The notes under the pieces: model-generated
Database searches by the model: none
The model's input: the letters and a program-made list of their open reading frames with translations, nothing else
What the model was told of the DNA's origin: nothing
Made by a program: the position numbers and the translations under genes
Source of the DNA: a virus
Length of the DNA: 35,950 nt
Strand: one strand, 5' to 3'
Virus record (IMG/VR): IMGVR_UViG_3300035698_011346
Span: 1 to 35,950 of that record
Shown here: one piece after another, positions 7,733-20,850 of the stretch
Layout: each line of letters begins with the position of its first letter
How positions within the stretch are numbered: the first letter of the stretch is position 1

Positions 7733-7761
7733 TTTACATTTGGGTTAATATGTGTTATAAT
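7733..7761 (+). promoter_or_regulatory. Promoter P1 (TTTACA - 17 bp - TATAAT)
   Basis: TTTACA at 7733-7738, a 17-base spacer, TATAAT at 7756-7761 with TG one base upstream (TGTTATAAT, extended -10). It lies just after the endolysin and before the replication operon, so it probably drives the early genes from 8043 on. It is one of five near-identical promoters in the window, but unlike the other four its leader is long (about 135 bases) and contains an inverted repeat. Confidence 0.8.
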
Positions 7762-8967: not shown

Positions 8968-9868
8968 GCTTGCGAAAGTGCTGCATTATTATTCGCTTTA
9001 TGAGGATTCGGCGTCATATAAAATAATATGTCCGTTTCACGAGGATGTCAATCCCAGTATGATCATAAACCTTGCGGATGATAATTTTTATTGTTTTGGA
9101 TGTGGAGTTACTGGAAGTGGGTTTGAATTCGTAAAATTATTAAATAAGGATCTCGATGACTTGCGCGCGTATATAATATATTATAATATACTTAAGAGCA
9201 AAAAGCATATGAGGTTAAAAACAAAAACTATAGTTAAGAGTGTGGATAACAAGCAATCAACAATTGAAGCGATTGATTATTACACTGGATTGTCAAAAAC
9301 CAACTGGTATGATGAAAACGTTGCAGCAAAACAATACATGATGGATCGCGGGTTTTCAATTAAAACACTCATGAGAGCAGGAGCAAAAATAAATTACAAT
9401 GTGGCATACCCCGTAATATTCCCAATGAATGACAATGGCGCTTTCAAGGGTTGGTTATGCAGGACGACGGATAAGCGCGTAGAACAGCGTCGCAAATATT
9501 TGTATAACACAGGGTTCAGCCGCAAGACGACGCTGGTTGGATCGTACGGTGGACCGATTGTCACGCTTGTTGAAGGTTATATGGACATGCTGAAAATGCA
9601 GCAATATGGCATCAAAAAAGTAGTAGCTATTCTTGGGTGGAAATTGACAGCCAACCAAATTGAAAAGTTGAAAGCTGCAGGAGTTAAAAAAATCATCAGT
9701 GCATTGGATAATGATGAATGCGGACGTAAAGGAACAGCATATGCAGCAAAGTTCTTTGAAGTTGTCAGATTTCAATTTGGTGAAGCAAAAGATCCGGGAG
9801 AGCTAAACATAACAGCATTTAGACAATGCTATCGTAAGACTAGAAAAATTATGGAGGATAGAACATGA
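8960..9868 (+). CDS. DnaG-type DNA primase
   Basis: 302 residues from the ATG at 8960, preferred over the ATG at 8954 because AGAGG at 8948-8952 is then 7 bases away. The N-terminus is a CHC2 zinc finger (C24, H27, C45, C48 in ICPFH and YCFGCG). The middle to C-terminus is a Toprim domain with E205 in VEGYMD, D250/D252 in ALDND, then KDPGEL. It makes RNA primers for replication. It is short compared with cellular DnaG and lacks a clear C-terminal helicase-interaction domain; no helicase domain is fused. The SSB gene overlaps its stop by four bases. Confidence 0.92.
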   Translation: MHELAKVLHYYSLYEDSASYKIICPFHEDVNPSMIINLADDNFYCFGCGVTGSGFEFVKLLNKDLDDLRAYIIYYNILKSKKHMRLKTKTIVKSVDNKQSTIEAIDYYTGLSKTNWYDENVAAKQYMMDRGFSIKTLMRAGAKINYNVAYPVIFPMNDNGAFKGWLCRTTDKRVEQRRKYLYNTGFSRKTTLVGSYGGPIVTLVEGYMDMLKMQQYGIKKVVAILGWKLTANQIEKLKAAGVKKIISALDNDECGRKGTAYAAKFFEVVRFQFGEAKDPGELNITAFRQCYRKTRKIMEDRT

Positions 9869-10797
9869 GCATCGTTAACGACATCAAAAATCAAGTAAAA
9901 AAGTCAGGAACGAACAAGGGTAAATTCATTTATTTCAGGTCGGGAAACAAGGTTCGTATCAGGTTCTTGAATGATATGGAAGATGGTATGAAAGTTTTGT
10001 TTCATGACAGCTTTGCGAAAAGTGTGAACACGCCATGCCAGGAAATTTTTGATAGGACTTGCAAGTTTTGCGGAGACGAGGAACTGAGAAGCCGCGATCA
10101 GTATATCTGGTCCGTTTGGGATCATGAAGCGAAAGACGTTAAATTGATGATGGCAGCCGTGAACAGCTTTACACAGATCCCCTCTCTTGTGGCAATGTAT
10201 GAAACATATGGCACTTTGATGGACCGTGATTATATCATCACAAAAAACGGTCAAGGAACTTCGGTAAATTTCTCAGTTGTGCCAATGGATCCAACGAAGT
10301 TCATCAATAAAAAAGCGAAGCCGTTCACAAAGTCAAAAACATTGGCAATGCTCGATAAAGCGTTCTCGGAGGAAGATGATGATGAAGAGGAAGAGAAGCC
10401 GCGCAAAGGTGCAGCCAAAAAAAAGCATGCAAAGTCAACAGCCAACCTGGCCGATAATAATTCATACGATGAGTATCCCGCCCAAGAATTATATTCAATG
10501 TGCATGGATCGAGGTATTTCCGCAGAGAAGCGCAAGCGTTCAAGTTACTATGCGGAGCTTCTTGAGGAAGCGGATGCTGAGGAAGCTGAAGATGAGGATG
10601 AAGTTGTGGATGACGAATCCAATGATGATCCAGATTATGATGATATGACGGCAAAAGAACTTTACAAGCGATGCAAGGATAAAGATCTTGATGTGAAGCC
10701 AAAGAAAAGCAAGGAATATTATATCGAGATGCTTGAGGAAGCTGATGACGAGTGGGACGAAAAGGGTGAAAAGGATGAAGACGATGACTGGAAATGA
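9865..10797 (+). CDS. gp32-like single-stranded DNA-binding protein with two SAP/HeH-like repeats
   Basis: 310 residues; GGAGG at 9853-9857. The first ~145 residues resemble phage gp32-type SSBs: a KVRIRFL strand and a zinc site H47-X10-C58-X7-C66-X2-C69, similar in layout to T4 gp32 (His, then three Cys). A charged linker (168-190, acidic then lysine-rich) follows. Residues 205-237 and 261-293 are two copies of the same helical unit (AQELYSMC...YYAELLEEAD and AKELYKRC...YYIEMLEEAD), resembling SAP/HeH modules. The end is strongly acidic (EKDEDDDWK), as in SSB tails that recruit partners. It protects ssDNA in replication and recombination and sits between primase and nucleotide genes. Confidence 0.85.
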   Translation: MSIVNDIKNQVKKSGTNKGKFIYFRSGNKVRIRFLNDMEDGMKVLFHDSFAKSVNTPCQEIFDRTCKFCGDEELRSRDQYIWSVWDHEAKDVKLMMAAVNSFTQIPSLVAMYETYGTLMDRDYIITKNGQGTSVNFSVVPMDPTKFINKKAKPFTKSKTLAMLDKAFSEEDDDEEEEKPRKGAAKKKHAKSTANLADNNSYDEYPAQELYSMCMDRGISAEKRKRSSYYAELLEEADAEEAEDEDEVVDDESNDDPDYDDMTAKELYKRCKDKDLDVKPKKSKEYYIEMLEEADDEWDEKGEKDEDDDWK

Positions 10798-11173
10798 TGG
10801 CTTGGGTGCAGCATATAAGCGTCAAGTCCAATTTCAAGAAATGGTTGTAAATTCAGTTGATGGCCCAGATCTTATGAAGGCAACGTTGCCAGCTGATGAC
10901 CTAAAATGGTTTTCATATCACGTGCAAGCGCTTGTCGAGGAGTTCGGAGAACTTATGAAAGCCGACAAGCGTTGGAAGACCCACAGAACAAGCTACGACC
11001 CAGAAAATAAGCTTGAAGAGATGGCGGACGTTTGGATCACAGTCATGAACATGTGTATATTTTCAGGGTTTGATTATGCCGATATAGTTCGCGTCGTTGC
11101 TGCAAAGATCTCAGAAAATGAGGATAGGTTAATCGATGCGCAGACGAGATTATTAAAAAGCAAGGAGCAATAA
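10784..11173 (+). CDS. MazG-like all-alpha NTP pyrophosphatase
   Basis: 129 residues from the ATG at 10784, overlapping the SSB end; the longer frame from 10733 would only read the SSB tail in another phase. The metal-binding signature of the all-alpha NTP pyrophosphatase/dUTPase superfamily is clear: E52-E53-x-x-E56 (EEFGEL) and E78/E79-x-x-D82 (LEEMADV). Such enzymes hydrolyse a (d)NTP to the monophosphate and pyrophosphate; substrates in the family include dUTP, dCTP and damaged dNTPs. The next genes are nucleotide-modifying enzymes, so it may supply dUMP or dCMP to them (inferred). The nucleotide preference cannot be read from the motif. Confidence 0.85.
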   Translation: MTGNDGLGAAYKRQVQFQEMVVNSVDGPDLMKATLPADDLKWFSYHVQALVEEFGELMKADKRWKTHRTSYDPENKLEEMADVWITVMNMCIFSGFDYADIVRVVAAKISENEDRLIDAQTRLLKSKEQ

Positions 11174-11174
11174 T

Positions 11175-12038
11175 ATGATAGCTATTTTTGGAGGAGGCTG
11201 CACAGGGTTGACCATTCTTGAGTGCATAAGAAAAAGCACAAATGATGTGATGCTATATACTCAAAACATAGGCGGACAAGTTGCAGCGGATGCAGCGTTC
11301 TCAGGTCCTCGTATTTTGTATCGTACCCCGGAGACCGCTCAGTTCATGAAGTATATTGGATGTCCAGATGATCCAAAAATATTCAAGGTCGGATACTTCC
11401 ATGGAAATCATCGGCCGATAGATAATAGCTTCACAGAGGAAGAGCGGTTACGATATTATGTGAAAACTCGCGGAAATAATGAGGTAAATAAAACGTGTTT
11501 ATCTCAATCCAGAAAAGAGATAATTGGATGGGATTGGAACGAGTGTGAAATAGTCAATATATTGCATATGCGTAACAAGGATCGCATAATTGACGGAGTA
11601 ATGATAGATAAGTCAATGATTGATTATTTCATAAGGCAGGGGTCTGATGTTCAGATAATATCGACGCTGAGTTATAACACTATGCAGCAGTTGATGGGCG
11701 GTCCCGGAAGAGTTGTATTCGATAGCACTTATATTGCAGCATTTGAACGCAAGTCTTTTGGATTGGATGTGAGTGAATTTTCATACGTTTATGACATGAC
11801 CGAAGGAAAAGCAAAAAGATATTATTCGACAGGAAATTTCACAGTCGTTGAGTTTTCAAAGGGATGCGTGAGAAGTCAAATTGAAGCATTCAATCCGTTA
11901 ACAATATCAAAACAGCCATGGCAGATCAGCGCTGATATATTTGCCACAGAAATAGGAACTATAACCTTAGAGGGTCGTTATGCGCAGGTCAATCATGGAT
12001 ATCGCGTTGATACTGCAATTTCAAAGTATTGGAGCTAA
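11175..12038 (+). CDS. FAD-binding oxidoreductase, UDP-galactopyranose mutase-like
   Basis: 287 residues. The N-terminus is a Rossmann dinucleotide site (AIFGGGCTGL, residues 3-12), followed at 33-47 by GGQVAADAAFSGPRI, which matches the GGN...GPHIFH stretch of UDP-galactopyranose mutases. The C-terminus has EGRYAQVNHGYRVDTAI (266-282), like the GR...Y..D..I FAD-contact end of that family. It is about 100 residues shorter than a normal mutase, and no galactofuranose or sugar-nucleotide gene is nearby. Neighbours are a pyrophosphatase, a dNMP kinase and a flavin-dependent thymidylate synthase, so a redox role on nucleotides or on flavin is more likely than sugar chemistry (inferred). I cannot assign a substrate. 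Confidence 0.7.
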   Translation: MIAIFGGGCTGLTILECIRKSTNDVMLYTQNIGGQVAADAAFSGPRILYRTPETAQFMKYIGCPDDPKIFKVGYFHGNHRPIDNSFTEEERLRYYVKTRGNNEVNKTCLSQSRKEIIGWDWNECEIVNILHMRNKDRIIDGVMIDKSMIDYFIRQGSDVQIISTLSYNTMQQLMGGPGRVVFDSTYIAAFERKSFGLDVSEFSYVYDMTEGKAKRYYSTGNFTVVEFSKGCVRSQIEAFNPLTISKQPWQISADIFATEIGTITLEGRYAQVNHGYRVDTAISKYWS

Positions 12039-12042
12039 ATTT

Positions 12043-12576
12043 ATGATTATCTTGATTGAGGGTGTGGACCGAGTAGGCAAGACAACTCTTTGCAATATGT
12101 TGGCGCTTGACGAAGATCTAAAAGATCGGTGCGTCATACTTAAGGATAAGTTTATCGTAGGCCAGCAGATAAAAAACTTCAGTGATTATTCTGTGGGCAA
12201 AATAGAAACGATGATGAACGTTGCTGAGATTTTGTCGAATGCAGGAAAATGTGTTATAATAGATAGGATGCATATGACCGAATTGGCTTATGCCGAAATG
12301 TTTCGCAAGTATAGGCCGGATGAACAATCAATTATGCAGCTCGATAGACACTTTGCTGAGAATAATGTGGTTATTGCAATTTATGTTAAGCCGTTTGATG
12401 TGATGTTCTCAGCCAATGCGTCAAATTTATCAGCAGCTGAGTTCACATTTTTGGACTCAAATATCTCAAAATGGTTTATGCTGTCAGAGATACGCGAAAA
12501 GCATGTTACGTCATTTGATAAGCTTGAATCAATGAAGAAGCAGATAAAACGCAGAATAGAATATGGAGGATTTTAG
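12043..12576 (+). CDS. Thymidylate kinase-like deoxynucleoside monophosphate kinase
   Basis: 177 residues from the ATG at 12043 (GGAG at 12031-12034; starts right after the flavoprotein stop). Walker A is EGVDRVGKTT (residues 6-15), the thymidylate kinase form, and IIDRMHMTELAYA matches the family's DR(Y/H)..S/T..AY segment. It phosphorylates dNMPs to dNDPs with ATP. The usual substrate would be dTMP, but T4 gp1-type kinases also accept hydroxymethyl-dCMP, which matters given the gp42-like gene downstream. At about 177 residues it is shorter than the usual ~210. The last helix is basic (KKQIKRRIEYGGF). Confidence 0.85.
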   Translation: MIILIEGVDRVGKTTLCNMLALDEDLKDRCVILKDKFIVGQQIKNFSDYSVGKIETMMNVAEILSNAGKCVIIDRMHMTELAYAEMFRKYRPDEQSIMQLDRHFAENNVVIAIYVKPFDVMFSANASNLSAAEFTFLDSNISKWFMLSEIREKHVTSFDKLESMKKQIKRRIEYGGF

Positions 12577-12577
12577 A

Positions 12578-13552
12578 ATGGATTTTCACAAAGATAATAT
12601 CGATTCGCTAAGACGTGTCATGGGGACAATGCCAGATCAAGATCCGAAGTTAGATTATTGTATCATCGGAGGGGTCAATGGCATAACGGTTGAGCTAATT
12701 GATCATAGCAAGAATCCATATAAAGCCATGTACATTTTGGCGACTTCGTGTTGGGGAAAAAAGATAAACAAATGGAGTGAAACATTGCCTGAGCATCGCT
12801 TCATGGTCGTCAAGGCCGTTCTTGAGCGTCAAGCGTTGCCATTAGCGTTGGAAACTCCATCGTTCACATTCGCCGTTGAGGGCCCATCCAGAGCAGCATT
12901 TGATCAGCTTGCGCGTACAAGAGTTGGAGCAGTATTCAGCGCCCGTGGAATGCGAGACAATAATTGGAAGGATGCAGTCCTTAGAATTCCAAATGCTTTG
13001 CTATCTCCTGAGCGCAGCGGACAAATGATGCAATTATTTGAGACGTGGAAGGCTATAAAAGACACTTATGCAGCTATAGTCGACAATGGCAAAGGCTCCT
13101 GGCAAGCTGCAAGAACAATCCTTCCGTTATATGTCTGTTATGGATATTCAGCTTCGTATAATTTTGCAGCGCTTAACAATATGTGCTCACAGCGGATGAA
13201 GTTTTGTGAAATGGAAGATACATGCGCAGTAGCATGGTTAACGAGGAAAGCGGTTGATGATGTCTTCCCGCTTCTAGGATCGTTTCTAAGACCCGGTTGC
13301 GATAATGTGCGCGAATGCACTTATCACAAGTCCTATGCGATGTCAGAAGCCTTTGGATGTTTATTCAAGGAGTGCGGACGAAATCCGTGTAAATCATCGG
13401 ATGGTTATGCAGAGTTCAATGAGACATGCACGGATGCGACTTTGCTGCAAAAGCAGCTTGGGATAGATATCTTAAGTCCAGAAGATTGGATAAGATATGG
13501 CAGCTTTGAAAGTCTCACTGATTCGGATAAAAAGTTATTCATGGAGGATTGA
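12578..13552 (+). CDS. thyX: Divergent flavin-dependent thymidylate synthase (ThyX)
   Basis: 324 residues; GGAGGA at 12565-12570. ThyX makes dTMP from dUMP using methylene-tetrahydrofolate, FAD and NADPH. The core is recognisable: SRAAFDQLARTRVGAVFSARGMR (written in parts: S104-R105, D109-Q110, R113-T-R115, S121, R126) corresponds to the family's SR...QL.RHR......S.R segment, and ILPLYV...N...L.N...R....E.E (181-214) to its C-terminal motif. The canonical RHR is RTR here and the conserved Ser eight residues on is not at its usual place. The C-terminal third is Cys-rich (ECTYH, CLFKECGRNPC). It sits among nucleotide genes. Function as thymidylate synthase is likely but the altered motif leaves room for another reaction. 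Confidence 0.8.
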   Translation: MDFHKDNIDSLRRVMGTMPDQDPKLDYCIIGGVNGITVELIDHSKNPYKAMYILATSCWGKKINKWSETLPEHRFMVVKAVLERQALPLALETPSFTFAVEGPSRAAFDQLARTRVGAVFSARGMRDNNWKDAVLRIPNALLSPERSGQMMQLFETWKAIKDTYAAIVDNGKGSWQAARTILPLYVCYGYSASYNFAALNNMCSQRMKFCEMEDTCAVAWLTRKAVDDVFPLLGSFLRPGCDNVRECTYHKSYAMSEAFGCLFKECGRNPCKSSDGYAEFNETCTDATLLQKQLGIDILSPEDWIRYGSFESLTDSDKKLFMED

Positions 13553-13558
13553 AAAGCA

Positions 13559-14134
13559 ATGAAGCAAGATATTTGTGCAATAGACATTGATGGCGTGTTG
13601 AGTGATTATCCGCAATGCTGGATTGATTTTGTGAACACGGAAACGAGATGCAAGTTCTTTGATCTCAATACCATGAAAAGCTTGTTATCATATTCGGAGT
13701 ATAAAGAGCTCAAGCATCAATACAGATCGGGAGATTATAAGTTGGGATTGCCATTAAAACCGGGTGCAGCAAGTTTCGTGCATGAGCTTCGAGAAGCCTT
13801 CGGCTACATGGTCGTTATTTTAACTTCTAGGCCGTTTGATGATTATCCAGATCTAAGAATAAAAACGAAGCAATGGCTTGATGATAGTGGTATTGAGTAT
13901 GATGATCTGCTGCATAGTAGAAATAAGCATCTGGAAATATTTGTTCAATATCCGTCGACGAATTTCATAGTAGAGGATAATCTGTCATTTGCTGAGAGAA
14001 TTGCAGCGTTCGGGTATCATGTTTTTTTGATGGACAATTCATATAATCGTTATAAAAAGGTGCAGGGTTCTGTCATTACACGAGTTAAGTCGTTCGAGGA
14101 AATATTGTTAAAAGTAGAAAATGGAGGATATTAA
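13559..14134 (+). CDS. HAD-family 5'(3')-deoxyribonucleotidase-like phosphatase
   Basis: 191 residues; GGAGG at 13543-13547. HAD motifs are in order: I is D9-I-D11-G (AIDIDGV), with D9 the nucleophile; II is T89-S90-R91 (ILTSRPF); K123 (SRNKH) is a candidate for motif III; IV is E139-D140 (IVEDN). The cap is short, as in phage and mitochondrial 5'(3')-deoxyribonucleotidases, which remove phosphate from dNMPs. In this block it could remove unwanted or host dNMPs, or process an intermediate (inferred). The specificity cannot be read. Confidence 0.8.
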   Translation: MKQDICAIDIDGVLSDYPQCWIDFVNTETRCKFFDLNTMKSLLSYSEYKELKHQYRSGDYKLGLPLKPGAASFVHELREAFGYMVVILTSRPFDDYPDLRIKTKQWLDDSGIEYDDLLHSRNKHLEIFVQYPSTNFIVEDNLSFAERIAAFGYHVFLMDNSYNRYKKVQGSVITRVKSFEEILLKVENGGY

Positions 14135-14135
14135 A

Positions 14136-14753
14136 ATGAGTATTGAAATTCCAATGACAATGACCGGAATTAGGAAGTTTGTGTTTGATGTAATTATGGA
14201 GTTGAAAGCATCGAATCATAAAACGACATATGAAATGATAGATTTTGGGTTTGGAATTCAGGAATATTCTGTCAAGAAGCTTGGCGATCTTTGCAGCATG
14301 ATCAATGATCTAGATGAAGTTAAGCATAAAATTCATTTTGATGGTCAAGAAGCGTTCAGCATTCTATATTCAATGGCAGATTCGCAGAATGATAAGGTCA
14401 TAGGATCGTATGCAATTTCAGAATATTCAGCAGCATTTACTCAGATGTTGTTCATTTCGCTGATGGTCAGGTCTGGAGATCTGGAAAGTAGACAACATGT
14501 TATTCGCTTCGACAAGCTGCATTGTTTTCAGACCATTCAGTTTCTCATCCGTGACGGTGTAGTTAATGTCCTATGCAATATGCGAAGCTGCAATCTCTTG
14601 AGAAACTTTATGACAGACATGTATATAGCTGGTGAATTTGGATGTTATATTGCCGATGCAGCAGCTGAAGCTCGCAAGTTGGATACAGATTATAGAATTG
14701 ATGTTCATATGCGTATAGGTAGCGCCCATGTTTACAAGTGTGAGGTGAGATAG
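14136..14753 (+). CDS. T4 gp42-like dCMP hydroxymethylase homologue (thymidylate synthase superfamily)
   Basis: 205 residues from the ATG at 14136 (GGAGGA at 14123-14128). Comparing by eye with the T4 dCMP hydroxymethylase and E. coli ThyA sequences as I remember them: LHCFQTIQFLIRD (128-140) carries the catalytic Cys as C130; VLCNMRSCN (145-153) matches T4 VVNMRSND, and its Arg (R150) contacts phosphate; D161 falls where T4 has Asp (selects cytosine) and ThyA has Asn (selects uracil); GSAHVY (195-200) matches GSLHVY, with H198/Y200 contacting the sugar. SRQ (118-120) replaces SRR. The N-terminal part is shortened and the catalytic Glu (E58 in ThyA) is not identifiable, so activity is uncertain. 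Expected reaction: 5-hydroxymethylation or methylation of dCMP. Confidence 0.72.
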   Translation: MSIEIPMTMTGIRKFVFDVIMELKASNHKTTYEMIDFGFGIQEYSVKKLGDLCSMINDLDEVKHKIHFDGQEAFSILYSMADSQNDKVIGSYAISEYSAAFTQMLFISLMVRSGDLESRQHVIRFDKLHCFQTIQFLIRDGVVNVLCNMRSCNLLRNFMTDMYIAGEFGCYIADAAAEARKLDTDYRIDVHMRIGSAHVYKCEVR

Positions 14754-17471
14754 TTGTTTTTTGAAATGCATAAACATTCGCAATTCAGCATGTTTGATGG
14801 TTTTGGCAAGGTAAAAGATATCGTTGAATATGCAAAAAAGTTGGGGCATCCAGCAGTCGCCATAACCGATCACGGAAATGCATGTTCATTGATTCAATTG
14901 TATCTTGAATGTGAGAAGGCTGAGATAAAACCTCTACTCGGCGTTGAAGCTTATTTTCAACCGGTGTTCGATAGTGCAGCGCCGAGGTATCATTTGACGT
15001 TGATTGCCAAAAACTTCGCTGGATATCAAAACATATGCAGCATAATATCGGACGCAAATGAATTTAATTTCTACCGTAACGGCCAGGTTACGTTCGAGAT
15101 CTTAGAAAAGTACCGTAGCGATATTATCTGCTCAACTGCATGCGTCGGTGGATTTATACCGAAAGCAATTTTCAATCACGATTATAAGCTGGCAAGCAAG
15201 GCGATTAAGAAGTTCAAGTCAATATTTGGAGCCAATTTTTACTTTGAGATAATGCCATTCAAAGTTGATGATCAAGGGATGCAGGAAACGATAAATGTGA
15301 AGCTGATAAAAGCAGCGCGAAAGTTTGATGTCAAGTGCATTTTAACAACTGATTCGCATTACACAGAGCCCGAAGATTTTGATTCGTACATGATGATGCA
15401 TAAAATATCAAAGCTTGGGCAAACAAGCAAGGGCGAAGGATTTACGCTCGAAGCGATAGAAAAAACATATAAAGAACGTTATATGCACAGCGAATCTGAG
15501 ATAGTTGGAAAGTTTATGAAGATGCATAATTTCGTCGGCGATAGTAATTATAAAGTTCCAAATGCAGGAACTGAAGTTAAAAAAATGCTTGATAATATGA
15601 CAGAAATATACAATCAGATAGACATGCATTTGGACTTCTCCGATTCAATTCCATCATATGATGGTGATGGCGATACGTTTGAGCTATTAAAAAGTGCATG
15701 TATAAAAAAGCTAAAAGATACCGACAGATTTATTCCAGAGTATATTGAACGTGCAAAGCATGAGCTCAAAGTCATCAAGAATCACGGCTTATGCGACTAT
15801 TTTTTGATAGTCAAAGATTATGTTGACTGGGCAAAGTCACAAGATATATACGTTGGGCCGGGTCGAGGTTCAGTTGGTGGATCTTTGGTGGCTGAATTGT
15901 TGAATATAACGACTATTGATGCAATTTCAGTCGGCACAGACTTTGAACGTTTCCTTCGAGAGGATAAGAAAAAAATGCCTGATATAGATATCGACTTCGA
16001 GAATGGGCGTCAGAAGGAAGTCATGGACTATATCATTAATCGTTACGAAGGGCATGCAGCGCAGATAATAACGTTTGGATATTTTAAGTCAGCCAATCTC
16101 ATAAATGATTTATGCAAGGTTTATGAGGTGCAGCAGGACAAGGCCGTTCAGATAAAAGCTATAGTTCAATCGCATGTGCCGATTAAGGAGCATTTTGACA
16201 TCGAGGACATCGAATATAAGGAAGTTATGAAAGACGTTCAGATGCGTGAAATTGATAGAGAATATGATGGTTTTGTAAAGCACTTCTGTAAGATGGCAGG
16301 TCAGGTAAAATATTACGGGAAGCATCCAGCCGGCGTTGTGATTACACGTGAAAAAATAGGACGTTATATCCCGTTGTCAAGGATCAAGGGCGTGTTAATC
16401 TGTTCATATGATAAATATGATGTAGAAGGAGCCAGCCTGTTGAAATTTGATGTTCTGGCGCTTAAGACCTTGAACGTGCTGCATGAAATAGAACGTATTA
16501 CAAATGATAAATTTGACAGGCTGAATATTCCAAAAGCAGTCGAGAAAGAAATGTATGATCAGTTCTCAAAAGGATTAACTCCGGGGATATTTCAGTTGAA
16601 CAGCCCGACAGCAAAAGGCATTTTGAAAAGCATCAGCGCTGACAGCTTTCAGGATGTCATTGCCGCAATTTCATTGAATCGGCCCGGAACCCTCAAATTG
16701 AAAACTCATGAGGGCTATGCTGAAAGTAAACGCAACGTCGACAAAACGACCACCTGGTATCCTTATACGAAGGATGCATATGGATCAATCATATATCAGG
16801 AACACGTCATGCGGATATGCAATGGTCTTGCTAAAATGAATCCAAACGATACCGATAAGCTCATGAAGCCACGATATAACGACGCGCAGCGTCAAGAGCT
16901 TCGCAAGATATTTTTGGCAGGAGTGAAAGCCAATTCAAGAACAAGTCGGGAGGATGCAGCGCGTTTATTCGACTCAATGTCACTGTACATGTTCAATAAA
17001 GGTCATGGTGCTGGTTATGCGCTTATCTCTGAATGGCAAATGTATCACAAAGTTAGACATCAAACCGAATATTGGTATTCGACCATAAAATGGGAACAGG
17101 ATGAACGCAAGCAATATGAATTTATGTGCGAAGCAGCAGCCGAGGGGATCCTGATATTTTTATCCCATGTAAATTATAGCGATGATGCGTTTTCATTGAG
17201 AGAGATACAGGGCGAGAAGGTCATTCAAATGGGATTGTTATTCGTCAAAAATGTAGGTCAAAAAGCAGCGGAAGTCATCTCAAAGGAACGTGCAAAAAAT
17301 GGAAAGTTTATCAGTTATGATGATTTTGTGATGCGTTGCAAAGATAGGTCAGTAACGTCTAGAGTTATTGCAGCATTATTGGAGGATGGAGCGCTTGAGT
17401 TCAGCAGCAAAACATTCAGAAATAGGGTTATAAAGTATAACACGGCGCTTTATTCGCGCAGCATAAAGTGA
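14754..17471 (+). CDS. dnaE: DNA polymerase III alpha subunit, DnaE type
   Basis: 905 residues from a TTG start at 14754, directly after the previous stop and with GAGGTGA at 14742-14748. The N-terminal PHP domain keeps its metal ligands: H6/H8, D39-H40, E65, H80, C130, D200/H202. The polymerase core has GPGRGSVGGS (368-377), then the catalytic PDIDIDF (409-415), then KFDVLALKTLNVL for the third Asp. The helical C-terminus has a helix-hairpin-helix like stretch (VKNVGQKAAEVI). It is about 250 residues shorter than bacterial DnaE, stopping before the OB-fold and clamp-loader-binding region, as in other phage DnaE proteins. It is the replicative polymerase of this phage. Confidence 0.93.
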   Translation: MFFEMHKHSQFSMFDGFGKVKDIVEYAKKLGHPAVAITDHGNACSLIQLYLECEKAEIKPLLGVEAYFQPVFDSAAPRYHLTLIAKNFAGYQNICSIISDANEFNFYRNGQVTFEILEKYRSDIICSTACVGGFIPKAIFNHDYKLASKAIKKFKSIFGANFYFEIMPFKVDDQGMQETINVKLIKAARKFDVKCILTTDSHYTEPEDFDSYMMMHKISKLGQTSKGEGFTLEAIEKTYKERYMHSESEIVGKFMKMHNFVGDSNYKVPNAGTEVKKMLDNMTEIYNQIDMHLDFSDSIPSYDGDGDTFELLKSACIKKLKDTDRFIPEYIERAKHELKVIKNHGLCDYFLIVKDYVDWAKSQDIYVGPGRGSVGGSLVAELLNITTIDAISVGTDFERFLREDKKKMPDIDIDFENGRQKEVMDYIINRYEGHAAQIITFGYFKSANLINDLCKVYEVQQDKAVQIKAIVQSHVPIKEHFDIEDIEYKEVMKDVQMREIDREYDGFVKHFCKMAGQVKYYGKHPAGVVITREKIGRYIPLSRIKGVLICSYDKYDVEGASLLKFDVLALKTLNVLHEIERITNDKFDRLNIPKAVEKEMYDQFSKGLTPGIFQLNSPTAKGILKSISADSFQDVIAAISLNRPGTLKLKTHEGYAESKRNVDKTTTWYPYTKDAYGSIIYQEHVMRICNGLAKMNPNDTDKLMKPRYNDAQRQELRKIFLAGVKANSRTSREDAARLFDSMSLYMFNKGHGAGYALISEWQMYHKVRHQTEYWYSTIKWEQDERKQYEFMCEAAAEGILIFLSHVNYSDDAFSLREIQGEKVIQMGLLFVKNVGQKAAEVISKERAKNGKFISYDDFVMRCKDRSVTSRVIAALLEDGALEFSSKTFRNRVIKYNTALYSRSIK

Positions 17472-20028: not shown

Positions 20029-20850
20029 ATGGATATGAAAATGAGAAAAGCAGGAGCAGATGATAGGAACTTCGTACTTGATTTTAGCTCAGCAACAGAC
20101 GTCGTTGAGTGGATTGATAATACCCAACGTATGGATTGGATGCATGCTAATTCACAAGACACAACGAGAACAGAATTCACAGGAACACGCAACTATAATG
20201 AAGCAAAGGATCTAATGCTGCATGGTGATACTTTCACCGCTGAGAAGATAAATGCAAAGTTGAATGCAGCTCGTAAGACCATTGAATCAAAAACAAAACG
20301 GATCCCATCATATGGCGTTGTTGGATATCAAGCTTCAGTTCCGAGATACTTGCAGGGAATTCCAACAAGTATGATCAACAAAAAAGCTGTGGTTGTGAAG
20401 CAAAAAGTTGTCACATTCACAAAAATAACTTCCTATAGCTGCCATGTCTCAAAAGAAGAGATCATTGAAAATTCAATCAAAGCGCTGCAAATAGTTCAAG
20501 CAGCAGAACAGCAAGGATATCGAGTAAACTTGAACGTGCTAATATGCAGCGGGTTGAGTGAAATGATAGCAATAAAGGTCCGCCTTAAAAATGCTCAGGA
20601 ACGCCTAAATATTTCAAAAGTGGCGTTTGCAATGGTCCATCCTTCAATGCTCCGTAGAATAGGTTTTGCAGTAATTGAGCGGATACCGATACAAATAAAA
20701 CATGATCGCAAAACATTATCAGGAACTTATGGTTATCCGATCAGTAGTGCAGCGCAAGCAGAATTCGCTTGCGAAGCTCATGAGATACTTCTTCCAGCAA
20801 CTATTAAAAACGTGGAAGAATTCATTGAAAAAATAATAAACGTGCTGTGA
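20029..20850 (+). CDS. DUF7192-like phage protein
   Basis: 273 residues (ATG at 20029, or 20035 with AAGGAAG at 20022-20028). Pattern matches, from memory, the phage DUF7192 family: FTGTRNYNEAKDLML...G near residues 50-65, GYQASVPRYLQGIP around 105-118, then alternating strands and MVHPSMLRRIGFAVIE near 200-216, and GTYGYPI near the end. Function of the family is not known to me. It has its own promoter and is followed by a CobS/MoxR-type ATPase with another promoter of the same type, an arrangement that suggests substrate or partner for that ATPase (inferred). Confidence 0.7.
   Translation: MDMKMRKAGADDRNFVLDFSSATDVVEWIDNTQRMDWMHANSQDTTRTEFTGTRNYNEAKDLMLHGDTFTAEKINAKLNAARKTIESKTKRIPSYGVVGYQASVPRYLQGIPTSMINKKAVVVKQKVVTFTKITSYSCHVSKEEIIENSIKALQIVQAAEQQGYRVNLNVLICSGLSEMIAIKVRLKNAQERLNISKVAFAMVHPSMLRRIGFAVIERIPIQIKHDRKTLSGTYGYPISSAAQAEFACEAHEILLPATIKNVEEFIEKIINVL

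Follow-up and report, generated by a model that had tools for sequence, protein, structure and literature searches.

A short thymidylate synthase-fold protein with a dCMP-type pocket, altered folate-site positions and a link to ThyX in a siphophage genome

Phages alter cytosines and thereby evade restriction and CRISPR. Phage enzymes of the thymidylate synthase (TS) fold that act on deoxycytidine monophosphate (dCMP) are usually annotated as folate-dependent hydroxymethylases, a label that can err, as the RB69-type 5-hydroxycytosine enzyme shows. In Mosigvirus, to which RB69 belongs, a TS-superfamily synthase yields 5-hydroxy-dCMP, which is followed by arabinosylation (PMC13390438). In T4 gp42, Asp179 is required for activity and for dCMP binding, and the meaning for substrate choice of Asp versus Asn at the equivalent position, 177 in Escherichia coli ThyA, is documented; a Ser at the position of ThyA Ser167 goes with deoxyribose substrates and the Ala of the CMP hydroxymethylase MilA with ribose (PMC6400193, PMC5175136). 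We analyzed the 35,950-base viral record IMGVR_UViG_3300035698_011346 (hereafter the window, meaning this whole stretch), which encodes a tape measure protein, terminase, portal, DnaE polymerase, primase, RecA-like protein and Cas4-like exonuclease and belongs to a siphophage. At 14136–14753 on the + strand it encodes a 205-amino acid protein, below called the short protein. We predict, with a probability of roughly 0.4, that it is a dCMP-specific TS-fold enzyme that does without folate, is probably assisted by a flavin and most likely hydroxylates C5.

The model of the short protein clearly adopts the TS fold, as the first-pass annotation, made from the sequence alone, had claimed. The AlphaFold prediction (predicted local distance difference test, pLDDT, 85.5; predicted template modeling score 0.82) matched 390 PDB chains in Foldseek at E <= 0.001, with TS folds at E 1e-9. 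VIA aligned it with T4 gp42 at Z 14.1 (root-mean-square deviation 3.4 over 183 residues) and with many TS chains at Z ~13–14. Kinship by sequence is genuine, though weak: PHROG_160 "thymidylate synthase" matched at 2.5e-5 and the NCBIfam thymidylate synthase model at 8.5e-5, phmmer aligned the protein with T4 gp42 at E 0.009, and a profile of four relatives reached gp42 at 1.4e-4; Pfam PF00303 gave no match. The start at 14136 (205 codons) is favored over an in-frame upstream ATG at 14121 because a GGAGGA motif lies ~8 bases before it.

We compared the pocket residues in an alignment covering ThyA, gp42, an SPO1-type protein and proteins of the phage lineage, in which residue numbers such as 146, 169 and 177 are those of E. 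coli ThyA. C130 (codon 14523–14525), R119, R150, S151, D161 (codon 14616–14618), H198 and Y200 all fall on pocket positions, and the motifs NMRS (148–151), GSAHVY and SRQ are in place, as first annotated. Cys146, Arg126, Arg166, Ser167, Asp177, His207, Tyr209 and Tyr94 are kept in 7/7 short proteins known from this lineage. Position 177 is Asp in the window (D161), T4 gp42 and MilA, and Asn in ThyA and the SPO1-type protein, which bears out the earlier assignment to the cytosine-type enzymes. The SPO1-type reference is the product of SPO1L3, annotated merely as hypothetical; from its homology and its Asn we take it as the dUMP (deoxyuridine monophosphate) hydroxymethylase type of SPO1. A dCMP-type pocket is, on this alignment, a well-supported prediction for the short protein. 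A change from SRR to SRQ had been held against it, a point that falls away, as SRQ also occurs in the SPO1-type protein and in most full-length lineage homologs. Another objection, an unclear catalytic Glu, is weakened by the D51 found at the Glu58 column, which may stand in for that residue; the column holds E in four relatives (L005, L093, L094 and L106; L numbers designate the loci compared), Asp in L035 and Arg in L037, in an N-terminal alignment that is loose.

The folate site reads differently. E. coli TS contacts folate through Asp169 (pterin) and through Gly173, Ile79 and Phe176 (p-aminobenzoic acid), for which gp42 has Tyr56, Ile81, Trp82 and Phe174 as equivalents, its Asp171 making contact through water (PMC6400193). 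Asp169 and Gly173 are present in ThyA, gp42, the SPO1-type protein and MilA alike. The window protein lacks the gp42-family combination of Asp169, a hydrophobic residue at 172 and Gly173, having N153, R156 and N157 at these positions. Position 172, hydrophobic in ThyA, is polar throughout the seven short proteins (R, K, N, N, H, K, K). Gly173 is missing from every one of them, the six others than the window having K, N or M there. Among full-length lineage proteins from cassettes without ThyX, Gly173 is found in 11/14 (His in the L006–L008 type) and Asp169 in 14/14; position 173 is Lys in the full-length TS-fold protein L091, which belongs to a different clade and, like the short proteins, has ThyX for a neighbor. 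The segment around W80/W83 is rearranged in the window protein. The PDB title of 1bjg states that D169N does not promote opening of the cofactor ring. The alignment gives a strong hint that the short protein no longer uses folate. Other candidate indications were rejected: the missing C-terminal tail is absent too in full-length relatives with Gly173, and gp42 works without it; W83 is wanting in gp42 and both W80 and W83 in the SPO1-type protein; and the association of ThyX neighborhood with Gly173 loss (Fisher p = 0.001) is not independent evidence because two evolutionary events underlie it.

A possible link to flavin comes from the structure search. The best two Foldseek matches of the short-protein model are both AfhB, entries 9iqu and 9iqc, entitled "phage HY126 dCMP hydroxylase-AfhB with sustrate dCMP" and "Monooxygenase dependent on riboflavin with dCMP and FAD," respectively. 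RB69p048 is 99.3% identical, over 152 amino acids, to the AfhB stretch displayed by HMMER. Like the window protein, AfhB and RB69p048 combine the TS fold with a nucleophilic Cys, a cytosine-reading Asp and Asn169, and lack Gly173. They differ from it in being full-length at the N-terminus (238 amino acids), in having Phe rather than Tyr at 209 and in their non-polar Val at 172/173. The pair Asn169 and Val173 is shared by AfhB, RB69p048 and a protein of Shewanella phage Thanatos-2; the window has the Asn at 169 but Asn, not Val, at 173. The RB69 cluster contains a U32 protein, and the annotation of the stretch examined includes no ThyX.

T4 gp42 resembles the window protein in fold, Cys148, Asp179, the Arg phosphate sites, NMRS and GSxHVY; its Asp171, Phe174-Gly175 and Glu60 are replaced by Asn153, Arg156-Asn157 and Asp51 (in a loose alignment), and its folate-crevice Trp82 has no aligned Trp. 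MilA is likewise of the TS superfamily and reads cytosine with an Asp, but has Ala in place of S151 and keeps Asp169 and Gly173.

Direct searches of viral and genome contigs for relatives of the short protein returned L005 or nothing, and the L093 short protein used as query found no match in cultured phages. Anchoring on RecA and ThyX instead yielded about 40 loci whose cassettes match or resemble that of the window, in which the interval between the single-stranded DNA-binding protein (SSB) and DnaE genes is a modular gene set. Seven members encode the short protein (the window, L005, L035, L037, L093, L094 and L106), and ThyX lies directly upstream of it in six of them; in the window, a haloacid dehalogenase (HAD) gene separates the two. 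A truncated copy in L095 also has ThyX directly upstream. Conversely, ThyX occurs without the short protein in L017, L032, L040, L096, L098, L099 and L103, among others, and the flavoprotein, HAD and ThyX genes of the window are found together in L040, L098 and L099, where no TS-fold gene was detected. Other short-protein cassettes carry a nucleoside deoxyribosyltransferase-like domain, a YfbR-like HD phosphatase or both; the HAD and HD phosphatases seem to substitute for one another without being homologous. A tree of 25 proteins places the seven short proteins together on one side of a branch (support 98/96), separate from every full-length lineage protein and from ThyA, gp42, RB69p048 and the SPO1-type protein; its branches are long, and the position of the clade is unsure. 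The six others are ~18–36% identical to the window protein.

Many lineage members encode a full-length TS-fold gene instead, several together with glycosyltransferase-like genes (L001, L013, L016, L022–L024, L026 and others). These proteins, of the type found in Agathobaculum phage AB434P2, share with the window protein the slot before DnaE, the Cys and, in all, Asp177, and differ in that some adjoin cytidylyltransferase and glycosyltransferase-like genes. The AB434P2 protein itself (L001:3838–4500) is annotated as "deoxyuridylate hydroxymethyltransferase," yet its base-reading residue is Asp, in keeping with a predicted dCMP-type pocket. In L006–L009, the TS-fold gene is accompanied by tandem TS-like paralogs. 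The adjoining proteins of ~230–250 amino acids in L008 (7543–8295 and 9301–9996) and L007 (6604–7347 and 7347–8099) show, by eye, a Cys and an Arg that is followed 11 residues later by Asp, the pattern of dCMP-type TS; L008:7543–8295, the one scanned, had no match in Pfam, and the PHROGs it matched are all of unknown function.

The neighbor gene at 12563–13552 (+ strand) encodes a ThyX-family protein, distinct from the TS-fold one. Its Thy1 domain (PF02511) scores 59.5 bits against a cut-off of 24.8 (4.8e-16). A GGAGGA Shine-Dalgarno-like motif favors a possible start at 12578 over 12563. The signature RHRx7S is changed to RTRVGAVFSAR, with R-T-R and without the signature Ser; the residues aligned with R78, R80, R147 and R174 of Thermotoga maritima ThyX are retained. 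Cassettes combining ThyX with a glycosyltransferase occur in Geobacillus phage GR1 (L115, 1158–11590), where no TS-fold gene is annotated, and in L021 (595–3966), where none was detected; GR1 also carries a nitroreductase/dihydropteridine reductase and a thioredoxin. ThyX in this cultured Geobacillus phage may serve base modification.

According to the mechanism that we propose, C130 would attack C6 of dCMP; D161 would recognize the cytosine, and R119' of the second subunit, R150 and S151 would grip the phosphate as in gp42. With the folate site lost, the activated C5 would attack an electrophile whose probable source is a flavin, the cofactor named for AfhB in the PDB titles; the product would be 5-hydroxy-dCMP or a related nucleotide oxidized at C5. 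The neighboring kinase would phosphorylate the modified dCMP, competing nucleotides would be cut back by the HAD phosphatase and the pyrophosphohydrolase, and DnaE, the polymerase of the phage, would place the modified base in DNA. ThyX would provide thymidine monophosphate (dTMP) or share its flavin chemistry.

Several observations weigh against this flavin-assisted hydroxylation. The main problem is that a flavin monooxygenase requires O2, and yet the nearest cultured relatives of the window phage infect Agathobaculum, an anaerobe; a ThyX-coupled, O2-free reaction is therefore kept under consideration. The short clade does not group with RB69p048 and AfhB in the tree, where branches are long and placement unsure. 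The VIA score of AfhB (Z 13.8) is inseparable from that of gp42 (14.1), and the profile search favors gp42 and MilA. No glycosyltransferase was found among the open reading frames (ORFs) of the window, a contig that is probably incomplete. Asp or Glu is kept at 169 in 6/7 short proteins, Asn being peculiar to the window. Finally, the tetrahydrofolate (THF) contacts of gp42 differ in part from those of E. coli TS (PMC6400193), which makes the TS-based markers a strong hint, not proof, of folate loss.

The first rival explanation is a folate-dependent dCMP hydroxymethylase like T4 gp42, diverged and shortened, in a phage with 5-hydroxymethylcytosine in its DNA. We regard this explanation as possible though doubtful. 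It accounts for a pocket that is the same as that of gp42, Asp161 included, for gp42 being both the best VIA match and favored by the profile, and for the acidic residue at the Glu58 column (D51 in the window, Glu in four relatives); D169 and G173 persist in full-length relatives from this slot, some of them beside glycosyltransferase-like genes, and T4 gp42 takes in and releases THF without a C-terminal tail (PMC6400193). It leaves the linkage to ThyX unexplained, and has to accommodate the alteration of Asp169, hydrophobic 172 and Gly173 in the window, of 172 and Gly173 in all seven proteins, and the rearranged W80/W83 segment. The T4-like route proposed by the first-pass annotation fits poorly for these reasons, the closest Foldseek match also being a flavin-dependent dCMP hydroxylase and not gp42. 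As a whole, the first-pass interpretation is partly supported: the dCMP-type TS-fold enzyme stands, and the T4-like label is the weak part. Somewhat less likely, the short protein has no chemistry of its own: it would bind dCMP or a deoxynucleoside monophosphate (dNMP) and act as a partner of the neighboring ThyX or regulate it, or it would be a remnant in decay. Its constant place downstream of a ThyX that often occurs without it would fit such a role, as would the uncertain catalytic Glu (Arg in L037) and the high divergence within the clade; the nucleophilic Cys and the substrate-site residues are nonetheless invariant in 7/7 despite ~18–36% identity, and between close copies the ratio of nonsynonymous to synonymous substitution (dN/dS) is below 1 (0.017/0.043), with 13 differences only.

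The oxygen-free alternative is a TS-fold enzyme that has traded folate for the aid of a flavoenzyme: the short protein would activate dCMP with its Cys, and the flavin of the ThyX-family neighbor would furnish the reactive group, so that dCMP becomes modified at C5. The setting would be a slot before DnaE at which folate-type TS, ThyX-type and U32-type genes replace one another. We consider this reading unlikely. Less likely still is its specific form, a two-enzyme pathway in which the flavin is loaded with a folate one-carbon unit and the Cys-activated dCMP becomes methyl- or hydroxymethyl-dCMP without O2. Such a pathway would suit anaerobic hosts; the linkage of the short protein to ThyX is one-sided, ThyX-adjacent L091 also lacks Gly173, and the glycosyltransferases beside ThyX in L021 and GR1, with no TS-fold gene detected or annotated, suggest a possible role for ThyX in base modification. 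However, the linkage amounts to two evolutionary events only, ThyX may just make dTMP, and to our knowledge no enzyme pair works in this manner.

A U32-family protein occupies the cassette slot in L014 (3668–4759), where no TS-fold gene was detected. It is 49% identical over 364 amino acids to RB69p050 (L113:4493–5662), which belongs to the RB69 cluster holding the 5-hydroxy-dCMP synthase; in Thanatos-2, the U32 protein lies three genes from the TS-fold gene. By analogy with RlhA, the basis for considering O2-independent cytosine hydroxylation by a U32-family protein, the L014 protein is a possible O2-independent cytosine hydroxylase.

All genes named by the first-pass annotation (those starting at 10784, 12043, 13559 and 14136, ThyX and the flavoprotein ORF) are present, and the cassette lies entirely on the + strand. 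It is bordered upstream by an SSB-like protein (9865–10797), identified by PHROG and lineage comparison, and downstream by the DnaE-type DNA polymerase III alpha (14754–17471). The all-alpha nucleoside triphosphate (NTP) pyrophosphohydrolase-like protein at 10784–11173 (PHROG nucleoside triphosphate pyrophosphohydrolase, E 2.6e-7; Pfam dUTPase_2/MazG at ~1e-3, below cut-off) is present in most lineage members. As it also occurs in L025, L029, L033 and L034, where no TS-fold gene was detected, it is not by itself the signature of a dCTPase. The P-loop thymidylate-kinase-like dNMP kinase at 12043–12576 (PF02223, 1.1e-6; NCBIfam dTMP kinase, 1.8e-8, below its cut-off) is found in many cassettes of either type. 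Neither gene is specific to TS-fold cassettes, which weakens the idea of a T4-like gene set. ThyX and a flavoprotein had been noted as additions to that set; ThyX stands on its domain match and the flavoprotein on motifs. The latter ORF (11175–12038), with GGGCTGL near its N-terminus and GRYAQ near its C-terminus, encodes a probable Rossmann/FAD-type protein of putative fold and function. Its orthologs are in L040, L098 and L099, the L040 one matching NAD_binding_8 at E 0.0075; its own matches are weak, searches found no relatives in viral contigs and no PDB relative of note, and its structure model is poor (pLDDT 51.7). The HAD phosphatase at 13559–14134 resembles the 5'-deoxynucleotidase NT5C (2e-5; motifs DIDGVL and EDN). 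In Dulem virus 36 (L003:11986–15882), DnaE is in two parts around an 800-base ORF, possibly an intron or mobile element. Elsewhere in the window, a DUF7192 protein (PF23822, 2.8e-41) of unknown function lies 3' of the recombination genes (20029–20847), and a promoter-like site, a consensus match of 11/12 with a TG before the second hexamer, precedes the replication genes (7733–7761). Searches of the window gave no tRNA and no Rfam match.

The short proteins make up a third, separate clade in which the dCMP pocket is kept, the folate site is changed and there is a tie to ThyX. If active, they would reveal how the TS fold switches co-substrates. Further DNA-modification enzymes of uncultured phages can be sought through the modular gene slot that precedes DnaE.

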